NCBI GenBank assembly: GCA_947502495.1
Contig: CANNAC010000002.1
Location: forward strand, 496,001-560,000
Length of the DNA stretch: 64,000 nucleotides
Origin: an uncultured Flavobacteriaceae bacterium
Lineage (GTDB): Bacteria; Bacteroidota; Bacteroidia; Flavobacteriales; Flavobacteriaceae
Reading direction: 5' to 3'
A program made the position numbers and the translations under genes. The number at the start of each line of letters is the position of its first letter. Within the stretch, counting starts at the first letter, position 1. Of this stretch, positions 30,301-35,112 are shown one piece after another. The notes under the pieces are model-generated. The model was not told the DNA's origin, did no database searches, and was given only the letters and a program-made list of their open reading frames with translations.

Positions 30301-32923
30301 AGGAGATAAAGAAGCTGCCAAAATGTTAGCTTTTGCTTCCGATAAAGAAAATTATAATGTTGGTGAAACAGCAACCATTACTTTTCCTTCTGGTATTGAA
30401 GGTCGTGCTTTAGTAAGTATTGAAAATGGCACAGAAGTACTGGAGCATAAATGGGTAAAAACTACCAAAGGAGAAACTACGGTAACGATTCCTATTACCG
30501 CAAAAATGGCACCTAATGTGTTTGTCAATATTTCGCTTTTACAACCACATGCGATTACTGCCAACGATTTACCAATCCGTTTGTACGGTGTAATTCCAAT
30601 AATGGTAGAAGATCCTAACACCAAACTAGAACCAGAATTAAAAATGGCTAGTGTTTTACGTCCGGAACAAGAATTTGAAGTTTTCGTTTCCGAAAAAAAC
30701 AACAAAGCAATGACCTATACTATTGCAATGGTAGAAGAAGGCTTGCTAGATTTAACACGATTTAAAACACCAAATGCGTGGAACGAATTTTACAAAAGAG
30801 AAGCTTTAGGTGTAAAAACTTGGGATGTTTTTGATGATGTCATTGGCGCGTATCCTGGAAGCGTAGATCAAATTTTTGCTATTGGTGGCGATGGCGCTGC
30901 TGCAGATGGTAAAAACAAAAAAGCAAATCGTTTTAAACCTGTTGTAACCTTTTTAGGCCCTTTTCAATTAAATCCGGGCGACAACAAAGCACATAAAATA
31001 AAAATGCCGAATTATATTGGTTCGGTAAGAACCATGGTAGTTGCAGGAGATATTACTAACGAAGCTTATGGAAGCACAGACAAAACCGTGCAAGTAAAAA
31101 AGCCGTTAATGGTATTGGCAACGCTTCCGTGGAAATTAAGTCCAGGTGAAAAAGTAACCCTTCCAGTTACTGTATTTGCAATGGAAAAAAACATTAAAAA
31201 TGTAAACATTAGCTTAAAACTAAGCGATGGCATTGAAGTGATAGGTAGTAAAACACAAACCTTGTCTTTTGCAAAACCAGACGAACAAATGGTTTATTTT
31301 GAACTAGATGTTAGTAAAGCAAAAGGGATAAATACGGTAGAAGTTATTGCTAGCGGAAACGGTGAAAAATCTACCTACAAAGTAGAATTAGATGTTGTAA
31401 ATACCAACCCCATAACTTCTGTAGCTTTAGATAAGGACTTAGAAGCTAATGCTTCCGGAAATCTCGATTTTGAAACCTTTGGTGTTATTGGAACGAATAG
31501 TGCTACGGTAGAGTTTTCTACGATGCCTCCAATGGATTTCTCTAGAAGACTGCAATATCTTGTTCAATATCCACATGGATGTGTAGAGCAAACAACATCT
31601 GGCGTTTTTCCGCAGTTATACTTGCAGGATATTTTCGATTTAACCTTTAAGAAAAAACAAGAAATCCAATCGAATATAGAAAACGGCATCAAGCGCTTAG
31701 GACACTTTCAAAGACCAAATGGCGGAATGAGTTATTGGATGGGAGAAAATAATGCCAATGATTGGGGAACCAGTTATGCTGGTCATTTTATGATTGAAGC
31801 CGAAAAGAAAGGATTTGTACTTCCGCTTACTTTTAAAAGCAATTGGATTGCCTATCAAAAACAAGCCGCTCGGGATTGGCGACCAAGCTATAAAACCTAT
31901 AACTCTGATCTCGCACAAGCATACCGATTATACACATTGGCCTTATCTGGAAGTGCCGATTTAGCAGCAATGAATAGACTTCGTGAGTTTACCGAAATTT
32001 CTAATGAAGCAAAATGGCGTTTGGCTGCTACCTACGCTTTAGCTGGACAAGGTGAAGCAAGTGCACAAATTTCTAAAACTGCAAATATTGAATTCCTACC
32101 TCCTAGATATAATTATTACACCTATGGTTCTGTCGACAGAAATCGCGCAATGGCATTAGAAACGATGGTAATTACCAAAGATCCACGCGCTAAAGATTTA
32201 GCGAAAACAATTGCTAAAGATTTGTCTAAAGATAAATGGATGAGTACACAAACCACAGCATATAGTTTACTTGCAATGGCAAAAATGGTAGAAGCCAATG
32301 GCGGGAAAGCAATTAAATTGCAATATACCTTAAACGGAAAAACAGAAGAAATAGACACGAAAAGCGCTATTGCGCAACGAGATTTAATTGTTAAAGAAGG
32401 AAGTAATTCGCTTTCCTTTAAAAACAACCAAGGCAATCTAGTTTATGTTCGTGTGTTGAATTCTGGAAAACTGCCTTTAGGAAACGAAAAAACAGAACAA
32501 CGAGGTTTAAGCGTTTCAGCAGTGTATAAAGATTTACAAGGAAACACCATAGACATTTCTAAGTTACAACAAGGTCAGGATTTTGTAGCAACCGTTAAAG
32601 TGAGTAATCTTAAAAATGAAAAGGTGAATGATGTGGCGTTAACACAAATTTTTCCTTCGGGATGGGAAATCGTAAACACGCGTTTCACCGACTTTGGAAG
32701 CAGTACTACTAGCCAAGCTAGATTTACAGATATTCGTGATGATCGCGTGAATTTCTATTTCGATTTAAATAAAAAAGGAAAACACGACACCAACACCTTT
32801 AATGTCATGTTAAATGCTGCATATCTTGGAACTTATTATTTACCAGGAGTACAAGCAGAAGCCATGTATGATAATGAGTTTTTAGTTAGAAATAAAGGAC
32901 GTTGGATTGAGGTTGTGAAGTAA
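27353..32923 (+). CDS. Bacterial alpha-2-macroglobulin lipoprotein
   Basis: This 1856-residue protein starts with a lipoprotein signal (MRIKKLLAFVFILALAFSC, lipid Cys 19). It contains the MG-domain series, a bait-like middle region, and the thioester motif CVEQ (Cys1410 to Gln1413) in YPHGCVEQTTSGVFPQLYL, followed by the alpha-alpha thioester domain (RLGHFQRPNGGMSYWMG). These proteins trap attacking proteases in the periplasm and are usually next to pbpC (PBP1c), which could repair the peptidoglycan. Here pbpC is 2.2 kb downstream, separated by repeats and extra genes. An acidic, Tyr-rich loop (about 455-492) is unusual. The family is certain, the protective role is from the literature. Confidence 0.95.
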   Translation: MRIKKLLAFVFILALAFSCKKQVEETDNIFKFKDYISYTTSGRISVANPIEINLANDVEGWEVNQEITDNIVSIKPHVDGKLLVNNKHSLRFVPDEILDADTEYTVDVKLDKIFNTIPTDFKTYTFQFKTITPNFNIVTNNLQSYSKEWQYLEGVIRAADIISLEDAKQLVEASQSGKNLAIVWNESYKKEKLFEFKIDSIHRLVEDSQILVKWNGKPIKADNSGENTVNIPGKNNFTITKVDVVQTPEQYLSINFSDPLKKQQNFDGLVTIQNVKNPKYIVDGNVLKAYPNTKVVGNVQVDVFQGIANTDGYKLKKPFSETIAFEDEKPQVRLISNGVILPNSQELKFNFEAVNLKAVDVRIIKIFEDNVLQFLQDNNLNNTNRNDVRRVGRRIAKQTITLQDASENTGKWKTYSIDLSKYMKADPGAIYRVELEMKKEYSLYNCDGNQNITNSEDNDDYYEEEYYEEDYYYEDYSETTTEDEDLREEEYWDNLTYSYQNNYYNWNDRKNPCKEAFYNNKTVAQNLLASNIGVIAKKGANNNYYFAVTNILDTNPEAGATVAIYNFQQQEIAKTKTDTEGLATILVENHAAFAIVSKGNNTSYIKLNDGNSLSLSKFDVSGNHLQRGLKGYIYGERGVWRPGDTLHLSFMLNDAGNKLPKAHPVKMEITDANGKLAYRNVTTNNLNNLYNFTVPTATEDKTGNWNAKVSVGGATFYKGLKIETVKPNRLKIKVDFEDEVLSGENPLNGKLDVKWLHGAPAKNVRTEIKAKFSNAYTSFKNYADYTFRDPSRSFSTEEIVIFDGKVNEEGLADITNKLSVGSNAPGMLNAQFLVRAFENGGDFSMDAFTKQYAPYKSFVGLKSPKGKGYGSYVTNENQTFDIVVVDAQGKPIKRNDLEVKVYKINWRWWWNSSYDNLSSYTSSTYHQAYKDMKLNTDANGKTSFTLNIPENDKGRFLIRVFDPKSGHATGRTAYFYKNWYTPSGDKEAAKMLAFASDKENYNVGETATITFPSGIEGRALVSIENGTEVLEHKWVKTTKGETTVTIPITAKMAPNVFVNISLLQPHAITANDLPIRLYGVIPIMVEDPNTKLEPELKMASVLRPEQEFEVFVSEKNNKAMTYTIAMVEEGLLDLTRFKTPNAWNEFYKREALGVKTWDVFDDVIGAYPGSVDQIFAIGGDGAAADGKNKKANRFKPVVTFLGPFQLNPGDNKAHKIKMPNYIGSVRTMVVAGDITNEAYGSTDKTVQVKKPLMVLATLPWKLSPGEKVTLPVTVFAMEKNIKNVNISLKLSDGIEVIGSKTQTLSFAKPDEQMVYFELDVSKAKGINTVEVIASGNGEKSTYKVELDVVNTNPITSVALDKDLEANASGNLDFETFGVIGTNSATVEFSTMPPMDFSRRLQYLVQYPHGCVEQTTSGVFPQLYLQDIFDLTFKKKQEIQSNIENGIKRLGHFQRPNGGMSYWMGENNANDWGTSYAGHFMIEAEKKGFVLPLTFKSNWIAYQKQAARDWRPSYKTYNSDLAQAYRLYTLALSGSADLAAMNRLREFTEISNEAKWRLAATYALAGQGEASAQISKTANIEFLPPRYNYYTYGSVDRNRAMALETMVITKDPRAKDLAKTIAKDLSKDKWMSTQTTAYSLLAMAKMVEANGGKAIKLQYTLNGKTEEIDTKSAIAQRDLIVKEGSNSLSFKNNQGNLVYVRVLNSGKLPLGNEKTEQRGLSVSAVYKDLQGNTIDISKLQQGQDFVATVKVSNLKNEKVNDVALTQIFPSGWEIVNTRFTDFGSSTTSQARFTDIRDDRVNFYFDLNKKGKHDTNTFNVMLNAAYLGTYYLPGVQAEAMYDNEFLVRNKGRWIEVVK

Positions 32924-33170
32924 AGAACCACCTCGTCTTCCGTTTCTTTTGGAAACGGAATCCACTCCTCCTTGAAAAAAGGAGGAGAGTTTAAAATCGA
33001 GTTACCATTTAAGATGGAAGATAAACAACTACAAGAGTTGATATAACCGACGTTTTAAATAACAGAACTAAATTATGAATATAGTAACAAGCAAAACTCC
33101 TTCCCTTGAAAAAAGGGAAGGTGGATTTGATTTCAAAAAAGAAATCAAAGACGGAAGGGTAAAAACAGAA
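32924..33170 (+). repeat. 245-bp structured repeat, copy A
   Basis: The copy starts directly after the stop of the alpha-2-macroglobulin gene. It carries hairpins CCGTTTC/GAAACGG, CTCCTCC/GGAGGAG, CAACT/AGTTG, CTTCCC/GGGAAG and TTTGATTTC/GAAATCAAA. The left and right ends are imperfect inverted copies of each other. It is about 90% identical to copies B and C by eye. It is followed by a hairpin element and the DUF2071 gene. Confidence 0.92.
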
Positions 33171-33208: not shown

Positions 33209-33931
33209 ATGAAAGCAAAAGAAATATTAAATCACAGTAAACACAGGCCCTTTGATTATCCTGCACGTTCTTGGAAATTCTACCAAGAGTGGAATGATGC
33301 TATATTTTTACACTGGGAAGTAGCCTGTGATTTAATCCAACCTTTTTTACCAAAAGGGATCGAATTAGATGTTTTAAACGGAAAAACCTGGGTGAGTTTG
33401 GTCGCTTTTAATATGAATAATATTGGCATACGAAGCTTACCAAAACTGCCTCATATTTCCGATTTTCATGAAATAAACATTCGTGTGTATGTGATTTACA
33501 ACAACAAACCAAGTGTCTATTTTCTAAATATGGAAGGCAGTAAACGTTCTTCTTGTAAAGTATTAAAGGCACTTTCTAAGTTCCCGTATCGCCACTCAAA
33601 AATGAAGCGAAATTCTTTTAGCTATACCTCTTCTAATCAAAAAGAAAACGACTGGTTTTATACAGAATACAGATTAGAAAACAGTCCTGTCATTAAAGAC
33701 GAAACCGATAATTGGCTAACAGAACGGTATGCCACTTTTCAAGATTATAAAAATCAAATTATTGAATATGATGTGCATCATGTGCCTTGGCCAATGCAAG
33801 CAATTAAATTAAAAAAGTTGGAAGTAAACTATCCGAGATTTAATCACATAATAAATAATCAACCAGATCGCGTACACTATTCCAAAGGTGTACAAGTACT
33901 CACTTGGGATAAAAAGAAAGTATCTTTATGA
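33209..33931 (+). CDS. DUF2071 (YqjF-like) protein
   Basis: This 240-residue protein matches the YqjF/DUF2071 family: IFLHWEVACDLIQPFLPKGI near residue 32, TWVSLVAFNMNNIGIRSLP, FHEINIRVYV and the C-terminal VHYSKGVQVLTWDKKK. The family is acetoacetate-decarboxylase-like in fold, without an established reaction. Its stop overlaps the next gene's start by 4 bp (ATGA), so the two are translationally coupled. It is part of the insertion between alpha-2-macroglobulin and pbpC. No catalytic role is proposed. Confidence 0.85.
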   Translation: MKAKEILNHSKHRPFDYPARSWKFYQEWNDAIFLHWEVACDLIQPFLPKGIELDVLNGKTWVSLVAFNMNNIGIRSLPKLPHISDFHEINIRVYVIYNNKPSVYFLNMEGSKRSSCKVLKALSKFPYRHSKMKRNSFSYTSSNQKENDWFYTEYRLENSPVIKDETDNWLTERYATFQDYKNQIIEYDVHHVPWPMQAIKLKKLEVNYPRFNHIINNQPDRVHYSKGVQVLTWDKKKVSL

Positions 33932-34242
33932 ATAATGAATCGAAACCGTATTACGCCGTAATTTTCACTTCCACACAAAATAAAAACACAAAAGGCTATG
34001 CGGAAATGGCTGAAAAAATGGAAACCCTAGCCAAGCAGCAAAAGGGTTTTATTGGTATAGAATCTGCTAGGGAAAATGTTGGTATTACTGTCAGTTATTG
34101 GGAAACTCTAGAAGACATTAAAAACTGGAAACAACAAAACGAGCATGTACAAGCACAATTAAAAGGCAGACAAGATTGGTACAGTTGGTACCATGTGCGG
34201 ATTTGTAAAGTAGAGCGTGAGTATGCGTTTCTAGCCAATTAA
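33928..34242 (+). CDS. Antibiotic biosynthesis monooxygenase domain protein
   Basis: This 104-residue protein has the ABM (dimeric alpha/beta barrel) pattern: YYAVIFTSTQ, YAEMAEKMETLAKQQKGFIG, SARENVGITVSYWETLEDIKNWKQQNEH and the final YSWYHVRICKVER. Such small proteins are quinone- or haem-related monooxygenases or of unknown role. It overlaps the DUF2071 gene by 4 bp. The substrate is unknown. Confidence 0.85.
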   Translation: MNNESKPYYAVIFTSTQNKNTKGYAEMAEKMETLAKQQKGFIGIESARENVGITVSYWETLEDIKNWKQQNEHVQAQLKGRQDWYSWYHVRICKVEREYAFLAN

Positions 34243-34255
34243 GTGATGTGCAATA

Positions 34256-34504
34256 AAAGACCACCTCGTCTTCCGTTTCTTTAGGGAAACGGAATCCACT
34301 CCTCCTTGAAAAAAGGAGGAGAGTTTAAAATTTAGTTTCCATTTAAAATGGAAGATAAACAACTACAAGAGTTGATATAACCGACGTTTTAAATAACAGA
34401 ACTAGATTATAAATATAGCAACACACTAAACTCCTTCCCTTTTTTTAAGGGAAGGTGGATTTGATTTCAAAAAAGAAATCAAAGACAGAAGGGTAAAAAC
34501 AGAA
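34256..34504 (+). repeat. 245-bp structured repeat, copy B
   Basis: This copy has the same internal hairpins as copy A, with CCGTTTC/GAAACGG on the left and TGATTTC/GAAATCA on the right. The left end (ACCACCTCGTCTTC) is matched by an inverted right end (ACCCTTCTGTCTTT). It starts 13 bp after the monooxygenase stop and ends one base before the ATG of the DUF559 gene, so it occupies the whole 5' region of that gene. Confidence 0.93.
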
Positions 34505-34505
34505 T

Positions 34506-34868
34506 ATGAAAAACAACATTCACAACCATAAGTATTTAGAAGAGCGGAGAAAAGAGCTACGAAAAAACTTAACCTCTGCTGAAGCTGCGCTTTGGAAAGT
34601 GATTCAAAAAAGCCAATTAAAAGGTCGAAAATTTAGAAGACAACACAGCATAAAAAACTTTATTGTAGATTTTTATTGTGCATCCGAAAAACTAATTATA
34701 GAATTAGATGGAGCCTATCATTTAGATTTTGTACAACAAAATTACGATGCAGAAAGAACAAAAACATTAGAAGCTTTAGGTTTGAAAGTAATACGATTTG
34801 AAAACAAGCTAGTATTTGAAAATATGGGTTCTGTGTTAGAAGAAATTATTAGCTACTTTAAAGAATAA
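34506..34868 (+). CDS. DUF559 (Vsr-like PD-(D/E)XK) endonuclease-domain protein
   Basis: This 120-residue single-domain protein has RRKELRKNLTSAEAALWKVI and QKSQLKGRKFRRQHSIKNFI, then VDFYCASEKLIIELDGAYH, where the Asp of VDFYC and the ExD of IELDG fit the PD-(D/E)XK nuclease core of the DUF559/Vsr-like family. The rest, GLKVIRFENKLVFENM, is also characteristic. It lies exactly between repeat copies B and C, which touch its start and stop codons. This suggests that it acts on, or is carried by, the repeats. Catalysis is inferred from the motif, and the family is not well studied. Confidence 0.88.
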   Translation: MKNNIHNHKYLEERRKELRKNLTSAEAALWKVIQKSQLKGRKFRRQHSIKNFIVDFYCASEKLIIELDGAYHLDFVQQNYDAERTKTLEALGLKVIRFENKLVFENMGSVLEEIISYFKE

Positions 34869-35112
34869 AAAACCACCTCGTCTTCTGCTTCTTTAGGGAA
34901 ACGGAATCCACTCCTCCTTGAAAAAAGGAGGAGAGTTCAAAATTTAGTTTCCATTTAAAATGGAAGATAAACAACTACAAGAGTTGATATAACCGACGTT
35001 TTAAATAACAGAACTAGATTATAAATATAGTAACACACTAAACCCCTTCCCTTTTTTTAAGGGAAGGTGGATTTGATTTCAAAAAAGAAATCAAAGACGG
35101 AAGGGTAAAAAA
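34869..35112 (+). repeat. 245-bp structured repeat, copy C
   Basis: This copy begins right after the DUF559 stop and ends one base before the ATG of pbpC. It is nearly identical to copy B. One hairpin arm in the left end is damaged (CTGCTTC instead of CCGTTTC). All six hairpins are otherwise kept. Confidence 0.93.

Follow-up and report, generated by a model that had tools for sequence, protein, structure and literature searches.

The DUF559 locus and its composite repeat

The window (the whole stretch of 64,000 nucleotides that was analysed) carries a DUF559 Vsr-like endonuclease gene placed between two direct copies, B and C, of a composite repeat of approximately 248 bp, with a third direct copy, A, lying farther upstream (Table 1). 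Specifically, 6 nt separate the end of copy B from the ATG of the DUF559 ORF, copy C covers the final 5 nt of this ORF including the stop codon, and copy A ends 1.09 kb before copy B, in agreement with the initial annotation, which had two copies touching the gene ends and a third about 1.1 kb upstream. In ungapped comparison with copy B, copy A is 86% identical (92% by BLAST) and copy C 97%. An alpha-2-macroglobulin gene on one side and a penicillin-binding-protein gene on the other enclose the three copies. A DUF2071 gene and an ABM-like gene sit between copies A and B; the DUF2071 gene is absent here in three congeneric genomes (G120, G122 and G124), in which the ABM gene is found at the same site and the macroglobulin–ABM interval lacks the DUF2071 gene.

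Table 1. Coordinates of genes, repeat copies and repeat modules at the DUF559 locus (positions in the window).
Feature	Coordinates	Strand	Remarks
Composite repeat copy A	32918..33165	+	upstream of copy B
Copy A forward module: hairpin 1, hairpin 2 and third segment	33099..33160	+	
DUF2071 gene and ABM-like gene	33209..34242	+	between copies A and B; DUF2071 gene at 33209-33931
Composite repeat copy B	34252..34499	+	upstream of DUF559 gene
Copy B inverted module: third arm-like segment	about 34261-34270	-	
Copy B inverted module: hairpin 2	about 34271-34294	-	after hairpin 1 on the minus strand
Copy B inverted module: hairpin 1	34299..34321	-	CTCCTCCTT/AAGGAGGAG; from sequence and fold
Copy B forward module: hairpin 1	34433..34455	+	CCTTCCCTT/AAGGGAAGG
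Copy B forward module: hairpin 2	34460..34483	+	
Copy B third segment	34484..34494	+	GACAGAAGGGT; against hairpin-1 purine arm: mirror 6, direct 5
DUF559 (PF04480) Vsr-like endonuclease gene	34506..34868	+	120 aa, frame intact
Composite repeat copy C	34864..35111	+	downstream of DUF559 gene
Copy C forward module: hairpin 1, hairpin 2 and third segment	35045..35106	+	third segment GACGGAAGGGT; mirror 7, direct 6

The ORF matches the PF04480 profile with an E value of 3.8e-36 and 123.7 bits, above the curated cut-off of 20.6, and its closest solved relative by sequence is 3hrl, an "endonuclease-like protein" (E 3e-19). Among seven diverse DUF559 members, the window protein included, the D, ExDG and H positions are invariant; D, ExD and H form the conserved acidic core and are the catalytic residues.

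Copy B together with the following 6 nt folds with −78 kcal/mol, compared with −43 ± 4.3 kcal/mol for 200 dinucleotide shuffles (z −8.1), so the repeat is as structured as had been claimed for it. It is composite, with approximately 110 nt flanked by two double-hairpin modules in opposite orientation. Within each module, hairpin 1 is joined by a GTGGA-like linker to hairpin 2, after which comes a third segment similar to the hairpin-1 purine arm, so that in copies B and C (locus L002) a pyrimidine arm is followed by a purine arm and then by a third purine segment. The second loop of the window modules measures about 31 nt and contains hairpin 2, in which a CGTC tag and a TCCA tail are visible by eye. 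Also judged by eye, hairpin 2 differs among dispersed copies yet remains paired, whereas hairpin 1 and the third segment remain similar.

The repeat is not unique to this locus. In its own genome it is dispersed as at least 22 matches in at least 13 clusters, mostly single modules or parts of them, and these counts are a lower bound because 40 of the 54 first-look candidates were scored. The same genome has three DUF559 genes, each beside palindromes of another sequence class (by eye): the one in the window, one at C1:378344, and one in frame inside a 1038-aa methionine synthase frame, in which Pfam places pterin-binding, B12-binding and activation domains around DUF559. At two loci of this genome (L029 and L032), the modules are interspersed with members of a further dispersed family of repeats (CTCGATACAATCCCGA... 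TCACTCGAACTGACA).

Association of DUF559 genes with hairpin repeats

When weak matches are counted, PF04480 occurs in 60 of 120 genomes of the bacterial family of the window. With 30 matches of at most 36 bits dropped and split matches merged, 69 DUF559 loci were kept, 51 of which are stand-alone genes. Flanking sequence was sufficient at 48 of these (L051, L065 and L098 had too little), and at 30 of the 48 the up- and downstream flanks share a direct repeat (score of at least 60), compared with 1 of 305 control ORFs and with 0 of 121 when the control is restricted to small ORFs. The controls come from 20 family genomes, which contributed twenty 20-kb stretches. At four of the 30 bracketed loci (L073, L078a, L078b and L090), the duplicated DNA resembles coding sequence of neighbouring paralogues; without them the proportion is 26 of 44. 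The duplications around the DUF559 genes of L073, L078 and L090 are not hairpin-like and instead read as the beginning of a gene for a small membrane protein, and some further bracketed loci, such as L060, have a repeat of another kind.

To count as a module, a hairpin had to have one pyrimidine-rich arm and, no more than about 60 nt away, a third copy of 5 nt or longer. The detector threshold was fixed after examples had been viewed, and the controls therefore weigh more than the raw rate: 74 of 138 near windows of DUF559 genes in the family contain a module versus 2 of 900 control windows. A strict detector, which demands an exact third copy of 6 nt, places modules at 24 of the 51 stand-alone loci versus near 2 of 307 control ORFs. 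The looser first detector was also run on two other small-gene families of this bacterial family, with 30 loci each. Modules are found in 0 of 60 windows of four-helix IVP genes (PF05635) and in 2 of 52 windows of GIY-YIG genes (PF01541, four loci being too short), and the idea that all small nucleases sit in these repeats is rejected on these counts. GIY-YIG is present in 120 of 120 family genomes and is therefore not patchy like DUF559. Among the GIY-YIG genes (L292–L321), 7 of 26 loci have flanking direct repeats of their own (e.g., L309, L304 and L306), several of which are of a different sequence type with CTCGA or GTCATTTCGA motifs; this is perhaps a second nuclease–repeat pairing.

Beyond the family, we took the best 80 of at least 573 named DUF559 loci from a scan of genome contigs. 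According to the record titles, these 80 come from alpha-, beta-, gamma- and deltaproteobacteria, Chloroflexi, Nitrospinota and others. Within this best-80 set, 75 loci were usable for a comparison of flanks (L159, L174 and L178 have no flank, and L181 and L202 contain N), and at 37 of the 75 the two flanks reach score 60 against each other. Pairs taken farther out at these loci do so in 0 of 70 cases, and pairs made across loci in 6 of 500. Modules are found in 120 of 160 near windows versus 5 of 148 far windows. From a plasmid collection, 16 of 40 listed records were added, Neisseria gonorrhoeae and E. coli among them. In Sphingomonas, a DUF559 gene lies between sufB and sufC, and elsewhere one lies between transhydrogenase genes. 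Over the resulting 165 loci (51 stand-alone and 18 in-frame loci of the family, the 80 broad and the 16 plasmid-collection loci), at least one module lies within approximately 430 bp at 134, on both sides at 82 and on neither at 31. By set, the loci with at least one module number 37 of 51 for stand-alone and 10 of 18 for in-frame genes of the family, 73 of 80 for the broad set (best of at least 573) and 14 of 16 for the plasmid collection. The association of DUF559 with these repeats is thus general, in many bacterial phyla, and reaches far beyond the window locus. The initial annotation had proposed to look for an excess of DUF559 genes near the repeat, and starting from the gene the association is very strong (30 of 48 versus 1 of 305 in the flank test, 134 of 165 loci in the module count). 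Starting from the repeat, a DUF559 gene lies beside 1 of 13 clusters of the window repeat class in its own genome (40 of 54 candidates scored).

The kind of repeat follows the nuclease. Loci were classed by a short or a long spacer before the third segment, and the classes were placed on a quick-search tree of DUF559 proteins built without L098, L099, L101 and L103. Repeat class changes 17 times among the 110 labelled proteins, whereas 300 shuffles, with labels exchanged within the two sets, need 31 changes on average and never fewer than 24. For the window's family alone there are 5 changes versus a shuffled mean of 14 and minimum of 8; for the broad set alone agreement is weaker, with 12 changes versus a mean of 17, and 1 of 300 shuffles reached 12.

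A purine-motif intrastrand triplex needs a mirror copy of the purine arm, and the third segment was scored for its fit as a mirror or as a direct copy. Of 588 hairpins with non-symmetric arms (arms that are not their own mirror image), 270 gave strong cases, in which the mirror fits better in 169 and the direct copy in 42. With one vote per locus, mirror wins at 79, direct at 13 and 8 are tied (100 voting loci). In window copies B and C, mirror is ahead of direct by one base, and in two modules of L003, another repeat class of the same genome, the direct copy fits better. At the level of sequence, the layout of the DUF559-flanking repeats is that of intrastrand-triplex (BoxC/PIT) repeats, and the third segment and the hairpin could fold into a triple helix.

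Occupied and empty sites and inserts in host proteins

Close relatives were examined for empty sites, as had been suggested, and presence and absence were found among congeners at pbpC, at metH and at one dispersed module. Seven genomes of the genus were searched, which have 0 to 3 DUF559 matches each (weak ones counted). Upstream of pbpC, the window has repeat–nuclease–repeat, whereas G124 has a single composite repeat without nuclease, G122 no repeat of the window's class, and G120 a short scar of the repeat end plus one module at another place in the locus. Repeat and ABM gene are both missing from G121, and G123 and G125 have other sequence. The G120 scar (AAAAGACGGAAGGGT, L238) replaces the B–nuclease–C block as if this had been removed between AAAGAC copies, which could be an ordinary deletion between short direct repeats. 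The dispersed module is present in four of the genus genomes, decayed in one and unrecognisable in two. In six of the seven genomes, metH was found. A DUF559 insert bracketed by inverted palindromes is found in G000 alone, where it replaces a host loop; the five other congeners have this loop uninterrupted, with the same amino acids. The metH and pbpC comparisons, which include no near-identical filled/empty pair, gave no noticeable target site duplication.

Outside the genus, the E. coli DUF559 gene ycjD was followed through its fabI–ycjD–sapF stretch, at least 80% of which is present in 3333 of 5426 genomes. One strain has a truncated ycjD. Among 40 listed records, 14 match on the fabI side only, the match stopping 41 nt before the palindromic motif near ycjD. 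E. coli was rejected as a clean empty site for ycjD, because other genes follow fabI in the two ycjD-less strains inspected.

These E. coli records would also fit an explanation in which DUF559 is mere cargo that ends up between repeat copies because these are fragile or permissive to insertion. The DUF2071 gene, which likewise lies between two repeat copies in the window, points the same way, as does the link of BoxC-type motifs to genomic instability described in PMC4666352. However, modules are nearly lacking from random ORFs and windows and from the two other small-gene families (0 of 60 and 2 of 52 windows); repeat class, moreover, follows the nuclease tree. We regard cargo at a hot spot as unlikely.

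At 18 of the 69 family loci, DUF559 lies within an open frame of at least 300 codons. Pfam confirmed, with one representative each, leucyl-tRNA synthetase, MetH, RecG, HemD, HisD and a PLP enzyme as hosts, and the remaining hosts were named by reading the translations. Several inserts have the nuclease domain between inverted modules. The LeuS editing-domain region carries DUF559 in several genera of the family (L039, L040, L044, L047, L050, L099, L100 and L102); the domain is broken in L099, and in L100 and L102, where it is degenerate, palindromes are absent both by detector and by eye. This absence rests on the reading of the flanks, because the detector misses intact in-frame loci: it is negative at 8 of 18, and it overlooks short palindromes such as those of the metH inserts, which are visible by eye at three of these 8 (L001, L052 and L057).

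These inserts bring up a homing endonuclease, which would cut a host gene or an intergenic site and for which the palindromes would be linkers, terminators or traces of past repair. In its favour, in-frame inserts form one clade per host gene on the DUF559 tree, those of LeuS, MetH, RecG and HemD included (6 changes for 7 states); metH is uninterrupted in five congeners, the hemD insert is more alike than its host in 2 of 3 pairs (both with L049), and there is a weak match to the PADLOC homing-endonuclease model (E 0.005), which ranks below the methyl-directed restriction enzyme model (E 1e-4). On the other hand, in leuS, metH and recG the identity of the insert is at or below that of the host protein in nearly all pairs. 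Because they have diverged as much as their hosts or more, these inserts look old and not freshly homed, and recent homing is unsupported for the three genes. Stand-alone genes at unrelated places, moreover, carry the same kind of palindrome. Homing appears distinctly unlikely as the explanation.

A candidate nuclease–repeat element and its relation to known systems

We propose that the DUF559 protein and its flanking hairpin repeats probably form one small selfish element that follows the logic of RAYT and REP. In the repeat, a pyrimidine–purine hairpin comes first and the purine arm then recurs, either at once or with a second hairpin in between; a single-stranded repeat, for example behind a replication fork, could form either a hairpin or an intrastrand triplex. 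One or a few loci would supply the nuclease, which would recognise the folded form of its own repeat class and nick or cut it at that place. If the break is then repaired by recombination with a further copy, single modules and composite repeats would spread in trans, and the same repair could convert a lone repeat R into R–nuclease–R; some lineages may have become fixed in frame in the host proteins LeuS, MetH and RecG. Binding, cutting and the repair route are inferred; we think it most likely that the nuclease attacks its own repeat class in the folded, single-stranded state and that recombination between copies spreads the repeats. In favour of a selfish element we count the excess of modules and flank repeats at DUF559 loci, its specificity against two other small-gene families, the mirror-fitting third segment, the agreement of repeat class with the nuclease tree, the occurrence of R alone, no R and R–nuclease–R at one site, metH with and without the insert, the degenerate leuS inserts L100 and L102 without palindromes, and the SOS response for which a Caulobacter DUF559 protein is responsible when a cytosine methylase is lacking (PMC12907096). 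Against it we count the 31 of 165 loci without a detected module (8 in-frame loci among them), the many repeats with no DUF559 nearby (1 of 13 own-genome clusters has one, 40 of 54 candidates scored, and so does one of about 20 E. coli K-12 motifs), the lack of a target site duplication in the metH and pbpC comparisons, the old-looking leuS, metH and recG inserts, the weaker tree agreement of the broad set and the G120 scar.

A protective enzyme has also to be weighed. A Vsr-like repair or restriction enzyme could sit beside triplex-forming repeats as a guardian of the genome and process the lesions that they cause. Caulobacter VsrA, which shares the DUF559 domain, acts when a cytosine methylase is missing and is reported to be responsible for the SOS response of such living cells (PMC12907096). 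What sets it apart is its description as Vsr-like with a tie to cytosine methylation, and a term search of the main text of that paper returned neither palindromes nor triplexes. The patchy presence of DUF559 (60 of 120 family genomes and 0 to 3 matches per genus genome, weak ones counted) and its insertion into operons and open frames speak against a guardian, which we hold to be very improbable. A role at the RNA level alone, with the hairpins as terminators or mRNA stabilisers beside a small gene and no DNA transaction, would suit the strong RNA folding (z −8.1) and the description of such palindromes as presumed terminators in Enterobacter (PMC2869309), but modules occur before as well as after the gene and also within open frames, and the mirror-fitting third segment serves a DNA triplex, not RNA pairing, which makes this role the most improbable of all.

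The selfish nuclease–repeat element that we favour has several known counterparts. Close in sequence layout are the BoxC, PIT and TM_ECO intrastrand triplex motifs (Hoyne 2000, as cited in Holder 2015, PMC4666352), which have the same succession of pyrimidine arm, purine arm and third purine segment; the short-spacer class near DUF559 genes resembles the E. coli sequences published there. Holder 2015 links these motifs to genomic instability and describes them in E. coli K-12 as having no association with mobile elements or gene functions, and in a word-start search its main text contains neither "nuclease" nor "endonuclease". Among approximately 20 of the 23 K-12 motifs in its table, one adjoins a DUF559 gene, namely motif no. 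9 (1351204-1351239), at a distance of 167 nt from the ycjD stop codon. The 1–6 nt loop rule of Holder 2015 is broken by the second loop of the window modules, with its approximately 31 nt and its hairpin, and these modules are therefore a long-loop relative and not TM motifs; many short-spacer modules at other loci comply with the rule. Hairpin 2 of the window modules, with the CGTC tag and TCCA tail seen in it by eye, resembles the CGTC-tagged REPs (CGTC tag, 8–9 bp stem and CCA tail), which are described as having no transposase dedicated to them (Di Nocera 2013, PMC3733652). A strict CGTC–hairpin–CCA scan gave 0 of 16 DUF559 loci of groups outside the window's family, and identity with CGTC-REPs is rejected as a general answer. 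Rickettsia palindromic elements are palindromic repeats placed in frame in protein genes; the DUF559 insert differs from them in carrying a nuclease domain, sometimes between inverted modules.

Each component is known, whereas the link between DUF559 and the repeats, how widely it extends and its accord with the nuclease tree appear to be new: no link of DUF559, COG2852 or YcjD with such repeats was found among the literature matches listed, a search that most subscription journals lie outside. On a wider scale, we give even chances to DUF559 proteins being structure-specific nucleases for intrastrand-triplex or hairpin repeats throughout bacteria, with BoxC, PIT and their kin as non-autonomous members of a widespread, unrecognised nuclease-driven class that also settles in frame in essential genes. 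If true, this would explain the nuclease domains lodged in LeuS, MetH and RecG. The link gives testable functions both to the repeats and to a widespread nuclease family listed in Pfam as of unknown function, and it makes DUF559 a possible enzyme that recognises folded or triplex DNA.

A close match in logic is the REP/REPIN and RAYT (TnpA-REP) system, in which the gene and the REP are reported to coevolve (PMC6006769). Dispersed palindromes, often paired in opposite orientation, are common to both, as is the small number of nuclease genes, one or a few, each between repeats of its own class that are also scattered elsewhere; here the scattered copies were counted for the window's repeat class only. 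The two differ in that the DUF559 repeat is a hairpin with a mirrored third arm and the REP a hairpin with a GTAG tag, and in that the window enzyme is of the PD-(D/E)XK type whereas RAYT is a HuH/Y1 tyrosine nuclease. The initial annotation had proposed a REP/MITE-like element with a DUF559 nuclease; this idea is partly supported, in that the RAYT/REP logic of few nuclease genes, an own repeat class and many dispersed repeats fits. The link between DUF559 and its repeats would represent a second, unrelated enzyme solution to the problem that REP and RAYT solve.
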